Positions 49,866 through 56,787 of a stretch of DNA of 56,787 nt are shown piece by piece. How positions within the stretch are numbered: the first letter of the stretch is position 1; every line of letters starts with the position of its first letter. The DNA is taken from positions 1-56,787 of the forward strand of contig NZ_JAKZLF010000033.1 in the NCBI RefSeq assembly GCF_022808855.1. Reading direction: 5' to 3'. The position numbers were made by a program, and so were the translations under genes. The notes beneath the pieces are model-generated. The model saw only the letters and a list, made by a program, of their open reading frames with translations, did no database searches and was not told the DNA's origin. Source of the stretch: Anaeromyxobacter soli (GTDB lineage: Bacteria; Myxococcota; Myxococcia; Myxococcales; Anaeromyxobacteraceae).

Positions 49866-51800
49866 CTAGGGCGCGACGGCGGTGGTGGGGGTGGCGAGGT
49901 GCGGGCCGGGGGCGCCCGTGCCCGCGCATCGTGAAAGGAGGCCCTGCACGGCCGGGTCCTTCGGGGCCTCGGCGAGGAGCCGTCGCGCGGTGCGCTCGCA
50001 GGCGGCGCGGTCGCCCTGGCGGGCCGTGAGCTCCGCGAGGCCGGCGCGCGCCTCGAGATCGCCGGGGACGAGGTCGAGGAGCTCCTCGAACGCCTTCCGC
50101 GCCTCCGCGAGCCGGCCGGCGTCGAGGTGCAGCTCGGCGAGCGCGCGCAGCGAGGGGGCATGGGCGGGGTCGATGGCGAGCGCGCGCGCGAGGGCGTCGC
50201 GCGCCTCGTCGCGGCGGGAGACGGTTCCGAGCACGAGGGCGAGGTCGTAGAGCGCCGACACGCTGCGCGGCGAGCGGGCGAGCAGCGCCTGGTACGCGGC
50301 GATCGCCTCGTCCGGCTTCCCGGCGCGCGCCGCCGCGACGCCGAGGGAGAGCTGCGCGGCGTCGTAGCCCGGGCGCGCCGCGAGCGCGCGCCCGAGCGAG
50401 GACCGCGCCTCGTCGAACCTCCCCGCCTCGGACTGGAGCTGCCCGAGCGCGAGCCACGCGGGCGCGTACTTCTCGTCGAGCGCGATCGCCTTGCGGTAGG
50501 CCGCCTCCCCCGCGGCGCGATCGCCGCCCGCCTCCTCGAGCTTGCCGAGGTTCACCCAGGCGGCGCCGTAGGCGGGGCGCAGGCGCAGGGCCTCGCCGTA
50601 CGCGGCGCGCGCCGCGGCGGCGTCCCCGGCGCGCTTCTCGAGCACGCCCAGGTTCAGGTAGGCCTCCGGGTAGTCGCCCTTCGCGACCTCGATGGCCTTG
50701 CGGTACGCCTTGCGCGCGTCGTCGTCGCGGCCGTCGCGATCCGCGACGAGCGCCGCGAGGAAGTGATGCTCCGGCTCCGCGGGCGCGTCGGCGACGAGCC
50801 GGTCCGCCTCGTGGCGCGCGCGGGAGAAGTCGCGCGACTGGAGCGCGAGCCGCAGCAGGCGGCGGCGGGCGTAGCGCTGAGTGGGGTCGAGCCGGAGGGC
50901 GCGGTCGTACGACTCGAGCGCCGCCGCCGTCTCGTCGGCCCGCTCGTGCGCGCGCCCGAGCAGGGAGTGGACCGCGGCGAGGTCCGGCGCCACCTCGGCG
51001 GCCCGGAGGAGCACCTGCACGGCGCGTCGCACGTCCGGGGCGGAGCCGGTGCCGAGCCAGGCGCGCGCGGTGCCGAGCAGGATCTCCGCGCTCGCCGGCG
51101 CGTACTCGATGGCCTTCGCGAAGCGCCGCTCGGCGTCCTCCCGCCGGCCGGCCGCGAGCTCGGCCGTGCCGAGCGCCACGAGCGCGCGGGCGCGGTCCTC
51201 GTTCGAGCCGGACTGGGCGGCGGGCGCGAGGATGGCGACGGCGCCGACGGGATCTCCCCGGCGGCGGAGCAGGTTCCCGAGCGCGATGCGCGCCTCGCCC
51301 GTGGGCCGGAGCGCGAGCGCGCGACGGAGATCGCGCTCGGCGCCGTCCAGGTCGTCGAGGCGCGCGCGGGCGAGCCCGACGCGGAGCGCGCGCTGCGGGC
51401 CCGGCCCGAGCTGCTCCGCCCGCACCAGGTGCGGGAGCGCCGTCGCCGCGTCGCCCGCGGCGAGGAGCACCGCGCCGAGCTCCTCCTCCACGGCGGCGGA
51501 GCCGGGGCTCTCGGCGAGGGCGGCCTCGTAGAGCTTCAGCGCCTCCGGCTTCTCGCCCCGGCGTGCGGCGCGCCGGGCGCGGGCGTGGGCCTCCGAGACC
51601 GGCCCCTCCTCCCCGGCCGCGGCGGGCGCGGCGGGCGCGTCGCCCTCGTCCCCGAGCGACTCCTCGTCGCCGGCGATGGAGATGACGAGCGGGTCGTTGC
51701 CGCGGCGCGCCGCGAACCCCTCGAGCGCGAGCGCGCCCGCGAGCAGCACGCCGAGGAACAGGAGCATGGGCCAGAGGCGGTCGAGGACGAGGCGGTTCAT
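49866..51800 (-). CDS. Membrane-anchored TPR protein of the envelope operon
   Basis: A 644-residue protein. One membrane helix (about 10-28, LWPMLLFLGVLLAGALALEG; read as LWPMLLFLGVLLAGALAL) is followed by an acidic Ala/Pro linker and then about 15 TPR units to the C-terminus: PEALKLYEAALAESPGSA, EDAERRFAKAIEYAPASA, AAALESYDRALRLDPTQ, ARKAYRKAIEVAKGDYP, AARAAYGEALRLRPAYG and DEARDALARALAIDPAHA. The TPR array is most likely periplasmic and binds partner proteins. The ATG at 51800 overlaps the stop of the ATP-grasp gene (ATGA). Confidence 0.82.
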   Translation of the reverse strand: MNRLVLDRLWPMLLFLGVLLAGALALEGFAARRGNDPLVISIAGDEESLGDEGDAPAAPAAAGEEGPVSEAHARARRAARRGEKPEALKLYEAALAESPGSAAVEEELGAVLLAAGDAATALPHLVRAEQLGPGPQRALRVGLARARLDDLDGAERDLRRALALRPTGEARIALGNLLRRRGDPVGAVAILAPAAQSGSNEDRARALVALGTAELAAGRREDAERRFAKAIEYAPASAEILLGTARAWLGTGSAPDVRRAVQVLLRAAEVAPDLAAVHSLLGRAHERADETAAALESYDRALRLDPTQRYARRRLLRLALQSRDFSRARHEADRLVADAPAEPEHHFLAALVADRDGRDDDARKAYRKAIEVAKGDYPEAYLNLGVLEKRAGDAAAARAAYGEALRLRPAYGAAWVNLGKLEEAGGDRAAGEAAYRKAIALDEKYAPAWLALGQLQSEAGRFDEARSSLGRALAARPGYDAAQLSLGVAAARAGKPDEAIAAYQALLARSPRSVSALYDLALVLGTVSRRDEARDALARALAIDPAHAPSLRALAELHLDAGRLAEARKAFEELLDLVPGDLEARAGLAELTARQGDRAACERTARRLLAEAPKDPAVQGLLSRCAGTGAPGPHLATPTTAVAP

Positions 51801-52747
51801 GCGGCGCTCCCGCTCGCGGCGAGCGCGCCGGGGACCTCGACCACCGCGGGGAGCCCCGCGAGCGCGTCCCCGAGCGCGACGCCGGTCACGTTCTGGATCT
51901 CGAGGCCCGGGCGGGCGTTGATCTCGAGGACGAGCGGGCCGCGCTCGCGGTCGACGACCACGTCCACGCCGAGGTAGCCGAGCGGCACGGCCCGCGCGGC
52001 CCGGCGCGCGACGTCGAGGATCTCCGGCCAGCGAGGCAGGGCGATCCCGACGAGCGGCGCCCCCGACTCCGGGTGGCGCTCCACGGCGCGCCCGTGGTGG
52101 AGCGCGCGGGAGGTGCGGCCCGTCTCGAGCTCCACCGCGATGCCGAGCCCGCCCTGGTGCAGGTTCGCGCGACCGCCCGACTCGGCGGTGGGGACCCGGA
52201 TCATCGAGAGCACCGGCTCGCCGCGCAGGGTGATGACGCGCACGTCGCAGAGCCCGTCGGCCCAGAGCGCGGCGAACACGTCGTGCGGGTCGACGCGGCG
52301 CTCGACGAAGGCGCGGTCCTCGAGCTGGTTCGAGTGGACCCCGAAGACCACGTCGGCGAGGTGCCGCGCGAGCGCGTGCGGGGTGAGGAGCGCGCCGCCG
52401 GCGCGGCGCCAGCCGCCGGCGTCGGGGAGCCACTCGCCCGCGACGAGGATCCCACCGCCGCCCGAGCCGTTGGCCGGCTTCACGACGAACCGCGACCGGC
52501 CGCGCAGCGCCTCGACGACCCCGGGGACGGAGAAGAGCCCGTCGCACACCGCGAGCGTCTCCGGGACCGGCACGCCCGCCTCCGCGAACCGCTCCTTCGC
52601 GAGGAGCTTGTCGTCGGCGAGCGGGTAGTCGCGCCGGTCGTTGTTCGGGTAGACGAGGACGAGGTTGCGGCGGTTGATGCCGTAGACCGCCTCGCGGCGG
52701 GCGAGGAGCGCGCGCACGCGGCCGCGCGCCGCGGCGAGGAGGCTCAC
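51797..52747 (-). CDS. Alpha-L-glutamate ligase-like (RimK-type) ATP-grasp protein
   Basis: A 316-residue ATP-grasp enzyme. NRRNLVLVYPNNDRRDYPLADDKLLAKERF (read as YPNNDRRDYPLADDKLLAKE) is the pre-ATP-grasp region, RFVVKPANGSGGGGI (K90) the glycine-rich ATP loop, DVRVITLRGEPVLSMIRVPT a core strand, and VLEINARPGLEIQN (E275, N277) the metal site. This matches the group of alpha-L-glutamate ligase-like proteins linked with transglutaminase-like 7TM proteins (described in surveys of amidoligases). It should form an amide, thioester or similar bond using ATP in the cytoplasm; the substrates are not known. Both neighbours overlap it by four bases. Confidence 0.85.
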   Translation of the reverse strand: MSLLAAARGRVRALLARREAVYGINRRNLVLVYPNNDRRDYPLADDKLLAKERFAEAGVPVPETLAVCDGLFSVPGVVEALRGRSRFVVKPANGSGGGGILVAGEWLPDAGGWRRAGGALLTPHALARHLADVVFGVHSNQLEDRAFVERRVDPHDVFAALWADGLCDVRVITLRGEPVLSMIRVPTAESGGRANLHQGGLGIAVELETGRTSRALHHGRAVERHPESGAPLVGIALPRWPEILDVARRAARAVPLGYLGVDVVVDRERGPLVLEINARPGLEIQNVTGVALGDALAGLPAVVEVPGALAASGSAA

Positions 52748-54318
52748 GGCGCGCCTCCGGTCAGGAGCCCGCGGAACCGGCGGTACTCGCTGAGGCGCAT
52801 CCCCACCCAGCGCCCGAGGTACACGTTCGCGGCGACCGCGAGCAGCAGCACCTCGGGGAAGCCGATGACGAGCACCTGCAGCGCGAGCGAGTTCATCACC
52901 ACGTAGCAGGCGAGCATCACCACGAGCGTGCCCCCGAGCTCCTTGCCCGCCGCGCGCGGGCCGTGCTCGGTGAGCGACAGGTAGAAGCGCTCCGCGCAGA
53001 TGGCGAGCACCGCGAGCGGGAACATCGTGATGTGGGTGAGCCCCGCGACGCCCAGCCGCTCCGCGAGCATCGAGGTGCCGACGAGCGTGACCACCACCGC
53101 GGAGAGGAGGATCGCGAGCGTGGGCGAGTGGAGGAGCTCGAGCCGCGCGACGGCCCAGCGCGCGGTGGCGACCGCCGCGACCACGATGAGCACCGCGAGC
53201 GCGCCGTAGCCCGCGCCGGTCTCCCCCGCCGCGGCCGCGAGGAGCGCCGGCAGGAACGTGCCGAACGTGGGCATTCCGACGACGTTCCGGAACAGCACGG
53301 TGAGGAGCGCGCCGATGGGGAGCATGAGGATCGTCCGGAGCAGGCTGAACGGCAGCTTCAGGCGATCGAACAGGCCCCACACGTCGAGGAAGGTGAAGGA
53401 GGCCTTCGCGCGCGGCGACGGCACGAGCTGCGTGCGCGTGTCGAACCGGTAGTCGAAGTTCACGTCCGAGGTGTGCCGGAACAGGACCTCGTCGCCGTAG
53501 TACAGGGAGAGGTAGCGCTCGGGCAGCTCGGCGAAGTGGTCGTTCGTCGGGCAGAACGGGATCCAGTGGCCGGACACGTACGCCTCGACCCACTGGTGCG
53601 AGGTGCGCTTCACGCCGGGCTCGAGGATGAGGCCGCCCACGAGGCGCGCGGGGATGCCGGTCGCGCGCGCGAGCGCGACGAACAGGCGGCTCTTGCCGTT
53701 GCAGCTCGCCTCGCCGAGGCGGAGCGCGGTGAGCGCGTCGGTGGTCCCCTTGAACGGCCGGGTCGTGAGCCCGTGGGTGTAGTCGTGGATCCGCCGCAGC
53801 CGCTCCATCACGGTCCCGCGGTCCGCCCCGATGCGGGCGAGGGTGGCCGCGATCTCCGGCGCGTCCACCTGGATCTCCTTCTCCGGGCGGAGCGCCGCCG
53901 CGGTCGAGGGAGGATAGGAGGATGGCACGGCGAGCTCGGCGGGGATGCGGTACGAGACGCGCCGCGGCACGATCTTGACGGTGTGCCGGATCTCCGCGCC
54001 GTCCGGCACCTGCGCGCCGACCCAGGTCGCCACGCGGTTCGGGCCGTCGAACACCTGCGAGAGGTGGAAGCCGGCGGACTCGGTCCGCTCGTCGGAGATC
54101 GTCTGCCGCGCGTCGCTCGCGGGGAGGAACGTCCGCACGCGCACGTCCCCGCCGTGCCCGTCGAGCCGCAGCGCGTACGTGACCTCGTACTGCCGCACCG
54201 GCAGGACGTCCGCGAGCGAGTAGCCGAGCGCGCGGACCTTGTAGAGCATCAGGCCGGCGGTCGCCGCGACGAGGGCGACGATCGTGACGGCTACCTTCCG
54301 GGGGTGCGCGACGGACAT
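52744..54318 (-). CDS. Transglutaminase-like/seven-transmembrane protein (UUP1-type)
   Basis: A 524-residue protein. N-terminal membrane helix (about 8-25), a periplasmic beta domain (about 40-150), a transglutaminase-like domain (about 160-265) and seven C-terminal membrane helices (about 325-510). The core is [29 protein letters not shown] (read as [21 protein letters not shown]206) and [10 protein letters not shown] (H241). At the position of the third catalytic residue, WIPFCPTND has C256 rather than the usual Asp. This fits the 'inactive transglutaminase fused to 7TM' family. First gene of the operon and translationally coupled to the ATP-grasp gene. The ATG at 54318 is chosen from the membrane anchor, and no good ribosome binding site is seen. 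Confidence 0.85.
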
Positions 54319-54505
54319 GAGGGTGCGGCGGATGATCGCGGCTACTCTCCGCCCGGTCAACCGTGCGCTCCCTCGCCCCCTTCGCCGACAGGTGGGACAT
54401 CCTGCGGCGAGCGGTGCGCACGCGCACCTCGGCCGAGCGGCGTGTTCGGGCTCCACGTCGGGCCCGACCGCGCGTAGGCTCCGCACGACCGAACCGGAGG
54501 ACCGC

Positions 54506-54874
54506 GTGACATCCGACGAGCTCCGCGCCGCCGCCCGCCGCGCCGGCGCGCTCCCCGACGAGGCGCTGCTCGCCGAGTGCGAGGAGGCGTTCTTCGTGGG
54601 CAGCGGCCCCGGCGGTCAGCACCGCAACAAGACCGAGAGCGCGGTGCGCCTCGTCCACCGCCCCACCGGCGTGACGGTCACCGCGACGGAGCGGCGCAGC
54701 CAGCTGCAGAACCGCGCGGCGGCGCTCGCGCGGCTGCGAGAGCGGCTCGGCGCGCTCGCTCACCGCCCGAAGCCGCGCCGGCCGACGAAGCCGACGCGCG
54801 GCTCCAAGGAGCGGCGCATCGCCGAGAAGAAGCGGCGCGGCGAGCGGAAGGCCACGCGGCGGGGATGGGACTGA
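54506..54874 (+). CDS. GGQ-domain release-factor-like protein (ribosome rescue)
   Basis: A 122-residue class I release-factor domain without codon-recognition domains. The catalytic loop is [18 protein letters not shown] (GGQ at 36-38), followed by [21 protein letters not shown], as in RF-type proteins. The basic C-terminal tail [30 protein letters not shown] (read as [20 protein letters not shown]) resembles ArfB, in which it reaches into the empty mRNA channel. It should hydrolyse peptidyl-tRNA on stalled ribosomes, as ArfB or mitochondrial MTRFR do. GTG start with CGGAGGACC upstream, and a TAGGCT -10-like box near 54475. Confidence 0.85.
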
Positions 54875-54942: not shown

Positions 54943-55296
54943 TCAGTTGCCGAGCTGCGACGCGAGCGGGATCGGCGCCACGACCCCCGCGGCGACGAGC
55001 CGCTCGAGCGAGGCGCGCACCTCATCGGCGGCGATGCCCGCCGCCTCGAGCTCGCGGACGAGATCCGGGACGCCGAGCCGCTTGCCGCGGAGCTCCGCGA
55101 GCACGATCCCGTCCGCCGGCGCCACGCGATGCGGCCCTGCCCACGCGGCGAGCGCGGCGTCGAGCGCGGCCCGGCCGCTCGAGCGCGCCTCCGCGACGAC
55201 GTTGCGGTACGCGGCCTCGGCGTCCGCGCCCTCCGGGGAGAGCGTGAACTTCTGCCCGCGCGGCCATCGCTTCGCTTCGTTGCGTTTGCCCAGCAT
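54943..55296 (-). CDS. Small hypothetical protein with winged-helix-like C-terminus
   Basis: A 117-residue protein. The basic N-terminus is MLGKRNEAKRWPRGQKFTLS. The C-terminal half (VLAELRGKRLGVPDLVRELEAAGIAADEVRASLERLVAAGVVAPIP; read as GVPDLVRELEAAGIAADEVR and SLERLVAAGVVAPI) looks like a small winged-helix domain. No family was recognised. The ATG at 55296 is preferred over an upstream in-frame TTG, because that TTG is part of a TTGACA -35 box. Confidence 0.6.
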   Translation of the reverse strand: MLGKRNEAKRWPRGQKFTLSPEGADAEAAYRNVVAEARSSGRAALDAALAAWAGPHRVAPADGIVLAELRGKRLGVPDLVRELEAAGIAADEVRASLERLVAAGVVAPIPLASQLGN

Positions 55297-55415: not shown

Positions 55416-55736
55416 TCAGCAGCCGCCCGGCTCCAGCCGGGGGTTGAAGGCGACGAGCCCTTCGCGCCCGAAGACGCGCTGGATCTCGATGCGGAGCCCG
55501 TCCACGAGCTCCCGCTGGCGCGCCTCCGCCAGGAACCGGATCCCGTCCTCCTCGATCACCACGTCGCGCTGCGGGTCGGCCGTCTCGTCCAGAGACAGGT
55601 TGAAGCTCACGCCCCCTCAGCCATGGCCGACGTGGATCCGGACGTACTGCGCGTGCTCGCCCGTGCTGGCGAGCGCGCGGAGCGTCTCCAGGGCGCGGGG
55701 CTCGATCTCGATGACGGGGTCGGGCTGGGAGGTCAT
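55416..55736 (-). CDS. HesB-like selenoprotein (in-frame TGA as selenocysteine)
   Basis: A 106-residue HesB/IscA-like protein if the TGA at 55617-55619 is read as Sec. The part before TGA (VIEIEPRALETLRALASTGE, YVRIHVGHG) and the part after it (GGVSFNLSLDETADP, VVIEEDGIRFLAE, VAFNPRLEPGGC) are in the same frame and together make one complete HesB domain. The Sec (residue 40) falls at the place of the first conserved Cys of the domain. HesB-like selenoproteins are known in archaea and delta-proteobacteria. A hairpin fitting a bacterial SECIS follows the TGA. The domain is linked to Fe-S cluster metabolism, but its function is not shown. Standard gene calling would report two short pieces. A clear ribosome binding site is lacking. 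Confidence 0.8.
55580..55598 (-). promoter_or_regulatory. Predicted bacterial SECIS hairpin
   Basis: Starting 18 nt after the TGA, CTGTCTC-TGGAC-GAGACGG folds into a 7-pair stem (one U-G) with a 5-nt loop. The loop begins 25 nt after the TGA and has a G within its first two bases. This agrees with the published bacterial SECIS model (apical loop 16-37 nt after UGA, G near the loop start). Confidence 0.65.
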
Positions 55737-55855
55737 GGGTGCGTTGGAGCCGTTCTCCGCGTGGAGGGTTCCGGAGCTCGGGCCGTCCGTGGGTGAGGGG
55801 AGGGGGAGCGCGAGGAGGCCCCGTCGCGGGCTGGACGCAGGACCCCACTCCACCC

Positions 55856-56473
55856 ATGAGATGGCGTCGCATGGAGGAGGAACGCGAACGCCGGCAGCGG
55901 GCCGCCCCGGGGTGGGGGAAGGCCCAGGTCCTCGCCATCGGCCACTCCACGCGACCGATCGCGGAGCTCGTCGAGCTGCTCCGGGGCGCGGACGTCGTCA
56001 CGGTGGCCGACGTCCGGACCATCCCGCGCTCGCGCGCGAACCCGCAGTACGAGGGGCCGGCGCTCGCGCGCGCGCTCGCCGCCGCGGGCATCGGCTACGA
56101 GCACCTGCCCGCGCTCGGCGGCCTCCGGCGCGCGCGCAAGGACTCGCCCAACGCGGGGTGGAGGAACGCGAGCTTCCGCGGCTACGCCGACCACATGGCG
56201 ACGCCCGAGTTCGAGGAGGGGCTCGTCCAGCTCCGCACGGTCGCCCGCGGGGGGCCCGTCGCGATCCTGTGCGCGGAGGCGGTCCCGTGGCGCTGCCACC
56301 GCTCCCTCATCGCCGACGCGCTGCTCGCGCGCGGCGTCGTCGTCCAGCACATCGTCGGGCGCGGGCGGACGCGGCCGCACCGGCTCACGCCGTTCGCGCG
56401 GATCGAGGGGCGCCAGGTGACGTACCCCGAGCCCGCGCCCGACGATCGCGGCGCCGGTGGCGGAGGACGATGA
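55856..56473 (+). CDS. DUF488 family protein, second copy
   Basis: A 205-residue DUF488 protein, longer than the one at 37795. It has VLAIGHSTRPIAELVELL, VVTVADVRTIPRSRANPQYEG, LPALGGLRRARKDSPNAGWRN, FRGYADHMATPEFEEGL and ILCAEAVPWRCHRSLIADALL with the conserved C-x(n)-CHR. The C-terminal 30 residues are basic and Pro/Gly-rich. ATG codons at 55856 and 55871 are both possible, and neither has a good ribosome binding site. It is divergent from the HesB-like gene. The enzyme activity is unknown. Its 3' end overlaps the convergent SemiSWEET-like gene by 89 bases. Confidence 0.82.
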   Translation: MRWRRMEEERERRQRAAPGWGKAQVLAIGHSTRPIAELVELLRGADVVTVADVRTIPRSRANPQYEGPALARALAAAGIGYEHLPALGGLRRARKDSPNAGWRNASFRGYADHMATPEFEEGLVQLRTVARGGPVAILCAEAVPWRCHRSLIADALLARGVVVQHIVGRGRTRPHRLTPFARIEGRQVTYPEPAPDDRGAGGGGR

Positions 56474-56699
56474 CGAGCCCCACCACCGCGCTCGCGAGGA
56501 GGACGGCGTTCGTCGCGACGAACACCGGGTTGCCGACGAGCGCGCTGTAGAGCGTGAAGCCGGTCGAGGCGGCGATCTGGCCCACGAAGAGCCAGCGCGA
56601 GACTCCCTCGCTCGATCCCTCCTTCCACTGCTTGTGCACCTGCTTCGCGAGGGTCGCGACGAGGACGAGGGAGCTGAGCCAGCCGAGGAGCTCGGTCAC
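56385..56699 (-). CDS. SemiSWEET-like PQ-loop membrane protein
   Basis: A 104-residue protein with three membrane helices (about 3-20, 38-56 and 62-80), the unit of bacterial SemiSWEET sugar transporters, which work as dimers. Marks are LGWLSSLVLVATLAKQVHKQWK, SSEGVSRWLFVGQIAASTGFTLYSALVGN (read as SSEGVSRWLFVGQIAASTG) and NAVLLASAVVGLVIVL. The C-terminal 25 residues are basic. The start at 56699 (GTG) matches the family; a GTG 36 bases upstream is in frame. The transported solute is unknown. Confidence 0.78.
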   Translation of the reverse strand: MTELLGWLSSLVLVATLAKQVHKQWKEGSSEGVSRWLFVGQIAASTGFTLYSALVGNPVFVATNAVLLASAVVGLVIVLRHRRRDRRARARGTSPGAPRSARTA

Positions 56700-56787
56700 C
56701 CGTGAACGGTGCGCCTCCGCCCCGGGCCCGGCCACCGTTTGCGTTCGCCCCGCCCGTCGGGCGACACTCCCGCCCCCTCCCGCCCCC

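Follow-up and report, generated by a model that had tools for sequence, protein, structure and literature searches.

A predicted HesB/IscA-fold selenoprotein in Anaeromyxobacter soli, representing a candidate divergent subfamily of the HesB-like selenoproteins

Near the end of the window (the whole 56,787-nucleotide stretch of Anaeromyxobacter soli DNA analyzed here), a minus-strand frame runs from 55736 to 55416 and, with one in-frame TGA read through, translates to 106 residues and a final stop, with selenocysteine (Sec, U) as residue 40. Translated with table 11, the same strand yields two ORFs, 55853-55617 and 55610-55416, and conventional gene calling would cut the gene into two pieces. 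The original prediction had joined these two short frames into a single 106-codon HesB frame with the TGA at the first conserved Cys, and our translation agrees. The features of the frame are as follows:

55419-55736, minus strand: coding sequence of the putative HesB/IscA-like selenoprotein; 106 codons, ATG start, stop TGA at 55416-55418
55617-55619, minus strand: in-frame TGA, predicted Sec codon at residue 40; TGA in 12 of 12 relatives, in the column of the first conserved Cys of IscA/HesB
55580-55598, minus strand: candidate bacterial SECIS hairpin; 7 bp (one G-U), loop UGGAC, loop start 25 nt past the TGA
55419-55421, minus strand: C-terminal Cys106, the sole Cys remaining from the A-type carrier CGC motif

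The surrounding genes are of several kinds. A winged-helix protein with a sub-threshold PaaX-like match is encoded at 54943-55293 (minus strand); judged by eye, its ATG falls about 14 bases after a promoter-like TTGACA-N17-GCATAA, which would make it nearly leaderless, and this stretch, not listed by a consensus scan, is also conserved in L022. Adjoining it is a gene for an RF-1 domain (release-factor-like) protein (54284-54874, plus strand), syntenic across much of the family, and 51797-54486 (minus strand) encodes a 7TM-transglutaminase membrane protein and then a conserved ATP-grasp-like protein (the latter named by reading the sequence), syntenic in five relatives. A DUF488 gene (55742-56470, plus strand; 113 bits) overlaps at its end an antisense gene for a SemiSWEET/PQ-loop-like membrane protein (56388-56735, minus strand), a pair kept in several Anaeromyxobacter genomes. 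The setting beside DUF488 and a "leaderless" gene had been put forward as special, which was not borne out: of 24 family genomes, 23 have the winged-helix gene, whether or not they carry hesB, and in one genome (G004) the RF-1, winged-helix and DUF488 genes are contiguous without hesB. We therefore rejected an operon or functional link between hesB and its DUF488 and winged-helix neighbors.

The joined protein scored above the gathering threshold of the Pfam Fe-S_biosyn model (PF01521; 31.3 bits against 26.3), and its best NCBIfam match was TIGR00049, at 40 bits against 58.8. AlphaFold2 predicted its structure with a mean pLDDT of 84.5, the last three residues not being confident. The best PDB matches of the predicted fold were E. 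coli IscA (Foldseek E 5e-6) and also SufA, and superposition on 1r94 gave a Z of 13.4 and an rmsd of 2.2 over 96 residues. The Pfam score and the top structural match to IscA both place the protein in the HesB/IscA fold family (PF01521). The structural matches also included DsrR, a protein with the IscA fold that is not known to act as an Fe-S carrier. In alignment with E. coli IscA and HI1723, codon 40 (TGA) falls at their first conserved Cys. The three-Cys ligand pattern of IscA, SufA and ErpA, C-x(n)-C-G-C, is not present, the protein having Sec40 and one terminal Cys, and relatives with complete ends likewise terminate in Cys. The host has, besides this protein, two ordinary carriers with CGCG tails.

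A family search with alignment identified the frame, each time with a single TGA, in 10 of 24 Anaeromyxobacteraceae genomes (identities 88 to 41%), and a profile search of 195 genomes of the phylum added two more from another family of the same order; the next-best profile matches in those 195 genomes were ordinary carriers whose frames have no internal stop. A contig-database scan turned up A. terrae as the only close relative. The TGA occupies a single alignment column in all 12 genomes, flanked by conserved residues on both sides, and the ATG start is kept in the closest relatives. These 12 genomes thus display what is expected of a bacterial selenoprotein, a conserved in-frame TGA with coding sequence beyond it. 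No start codon after the TGA is conserved among relatives at the position compared: codon 43, the GTG start of the downstream ORF, appears as GTG, TGG, GTC, ATC, TAC, ATG or CCA. Downstream of the TGA, dN/dS was 0.10-0.39 in the informative pairs (G018/G019, G008/G005 and G000/G005); in the near pair G000/G008 it was about 1 on just 2 synonymous changes, making that pair uninformative. Absence of conserved sequence after the TGA would have spoken against a selenoprotein, and close relatives retain the TGA as well as the residues encoded downstream of it.

The bacterial SECIS consensus is a hairpin right after the TGA, with a G among the first two bases of the loop, which lies about 16-37 nt downstream. 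The hairpin at 55580-55598 has this form, with its 25-nt spacing and UGGAC loop, and shows covariation among relatives. The window sequence alone makes it unremarkable: in this GC-rich window, 105 of 699 TGAs (15%) have an equal or better hairpin at an allowed position, and the fold z-score is 0.17. We accordingly rejected the hairpin as significant by that measure, and an Rfam scan of the region returned only sub-threshold chance matches, with no SECIS family among them.

Comparison across genomes gave a different picture from the window alone. At codon 48, within the stem, all 12 genomes have TCT, ACT or GCT; in a sample of 5339 host codons (GC3 0.97), these account for 0.4% of Ser, 2.2% of Thr and 0.7% of Ala codons, respectively. 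CTG stands on both sides of codon 48, though the host prefers CTC 3:1. The pair 25-37 occurs as GC, UA and AU, and in three genomes the U-A pair has become A-U by way of one Ser to Thr and one Thr to Ser change. Among 20 distinct sequences, stem positions were paired in 96.4% of cells, against 27-49% (at most 48.6%) for slid controls, and double changes were found at 3 stem pairs. The covariation score of 0.363 was reached by none of 500 shuffles; as the sequences are related, this result is not a probability, and the slid controls carry the argument. One stem pair is broken in one genome (G003). Judged across genomes, these patterns clearly point to a hairpin under selection, so that the SECIS position and loop first proposed for it are upheld by this comparison and not by the window.

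The reading that comes closest to challenging a selenoprotein takes the TGA as a true stop, with the halves either remnants of a decayed pseudogene or a pair of small genes. The standard code does give two ORFs; however, the same TGA is found in 12 species without decay, purifying selection continues past it in the informative pairs, no restart codon is conserved and the SECIS is constrained, leaving this reading highly improbable.

The host was predicted to have selA, selB, selC and selD, and all four were recovered: tRNA-Sec at 75.4 bits with anticodon TCA (ARAGORN also calls tRNA-SeC), SelB at 307 bits, SelA at 538 bits and SelD at 393 bits. In the host selD (L018), too, an in-frame TGA lies at the active site, in the motif GAGUACK, and host SelD is itself a selenoprotein. 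A GC-rich inverted repeat comes after the selD TGA. All 26 genomes tested have selA, whether or not they have the hesB-Se gene, so this gene varies in presence independently of the Sec trait.

Readthrough of the UGA as Trp, or its unspecific suppression, fares even worse than a true stop, given a Cys as the aligned residue in IscA-type homologues, full Sec machinery in the host and a conserved SECIS; we consider it scarcely credible. A sequencing or assembly error is refuted by the same frame in 12 independent assemblies, single-contig genomes included. From sequence comparison, then, 55419-55736 on the minus strand almost certainly encodes a HesB/IscA-fold selenoprotein, with UGA 40 decoded as Sec by way of the SECIS and SelB.

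During synthesis of such a protein, SelB with Sec-tRNA(Sec) would bind the hairpin just past UGA codon 40, and Sec would be inserted where the first conserved, ligand-forming Cys would otherwise stand. In the finished protein, probably a dimer, Sec40 and Cys106 may hold iron, an Fe-S cluster or another soft metal. It could then serve as a specialized carrier beside the cell's two ordinary CGC-type carriers, in a setting of anaerobic or microaerobic conditions, where selenolates are stable. That Sec40 and Cys106, probably across a dimer, bind metal or an Fe-S cluster seems moderately probable by analogy with IscA, and we regard this as the likeliest use because these positions have an established role there. 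Against it stand the loss of the canonical CxC, of which a single Cys is left, and the presence of DsrR among the structural matches.

The main rival to that role is selenol/thiol redox chemistry, with Sec40 and Cys106 forming a selenenylsulfide and the protein acting as a reductase or a peroxide/metal-stress sensor, not as an Fe-S carrier. Just one Cys is left besides the Sec, and PMC13188914 regards a redox function as likely for most uncharacterized selenoproteins of prokaryotes. Yet the fold and the Sec position match the metal-ligand Cys of IscA and the protein has no UxxC/CxxU motif, and a redox role strikes us as rather unlikely. The gene offers a route to asking what selenium does within the Fe-S-carrier fold.

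HesB-like selenoproteins were, as the original prediction acknowledged, already a known family: 11 had been described in 2006 (PMC1794560) and 90 in 86 organisms by 2016 (PMC5029168). The 2006 selenoproteome of A. dehalogenans lists 11 selenoproteins, none of them HesB-like (PMC1794560, Table 3), and a literature search of main texts found no report of a HesB-like selenoprotein in Anaeromyxobacter. The present gene would add one to the genus. A "TIGR01911-type" membership did not hold. The protein scores 15.5 bits against a cut-off of 66.35 for TIGR01911 (HesB_rel_seleno) and 28.1 bits against 85 for NF038090 (IscA_HesB_Se); the UxGP motif given for TIGR01911 (PMC13188914) is absent, the Sec site reading UGGVS. 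On this sequence evidence, the host protein is best described as a divergent new subfamily within the known HesB-like selenoproteins, one revealed despite scoring under the cut-offs of curated models.

Other families of the phylum contain selenoproteins of the NF038090 type, with 7 genomes above the cut-off, each with one TGA, and 3 weaker. Their SECIS loop is UGGA(U/C) at 25-nt spacing, the variable pair is mostly G-C, and their TGA stands before the same GG/AG-P..L.LDE stretch as in the new subfamily. One NF038090-like relative (L097 in G192) reads SUCGP, with a Cys immediately after the Sec. The two subfamilies together make a clean comparative test case for the bacterial SECIS, one hairpin being kept by compensatory codon changes across both.

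Set against these known systems, the protein would share with the A-type carriers IscA, SufA and ErpA (TIGR00049, PF01521) a common fold, as modeled, and differ from them in having Sec for the first Cys and a single C-terminal Cys for the CGC motif. With TIGR01911 it has in common a HesB domain whose first conserved Cys is replaced by Sec, but it scores 15.5 against 66 bits and lacks UxGP. The likeness to NF038090 extends further, to the Sec position, the 25-nt spacing from UGA to loop, a UGGAN loop and a stem at the same codons, and 10 of 10 proteins tested from the new group matched that model; Sec position and SECIS, common to both, link the new subfamily to NF038090. The two are nonetheless distinct: the new subfamily has mostly UGG[VIWMY]S and LDETA where NF038090 has UGGP and LDEP, and a single C-terminal Cys in contrast to a Cys-rich tail. 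It also forms a separate group, with support of 90/93, in a protein tree that has long branches and no established root and fits either one or two origins of Sec. No Cys form of the Anaeromyxobacter-type subfamily was seen in the 195 phylum genomes. We tentatively propose, as a possibility that may well need revision, a separate HesB-Se subfamily, so far Sec-only in the sampled phylum, in which metal would be held by Sec and a single Cys per subunit, a mode of action distinct from that of A-type carriers with their three Cys and of NF038090 proteins with their Cys tails.
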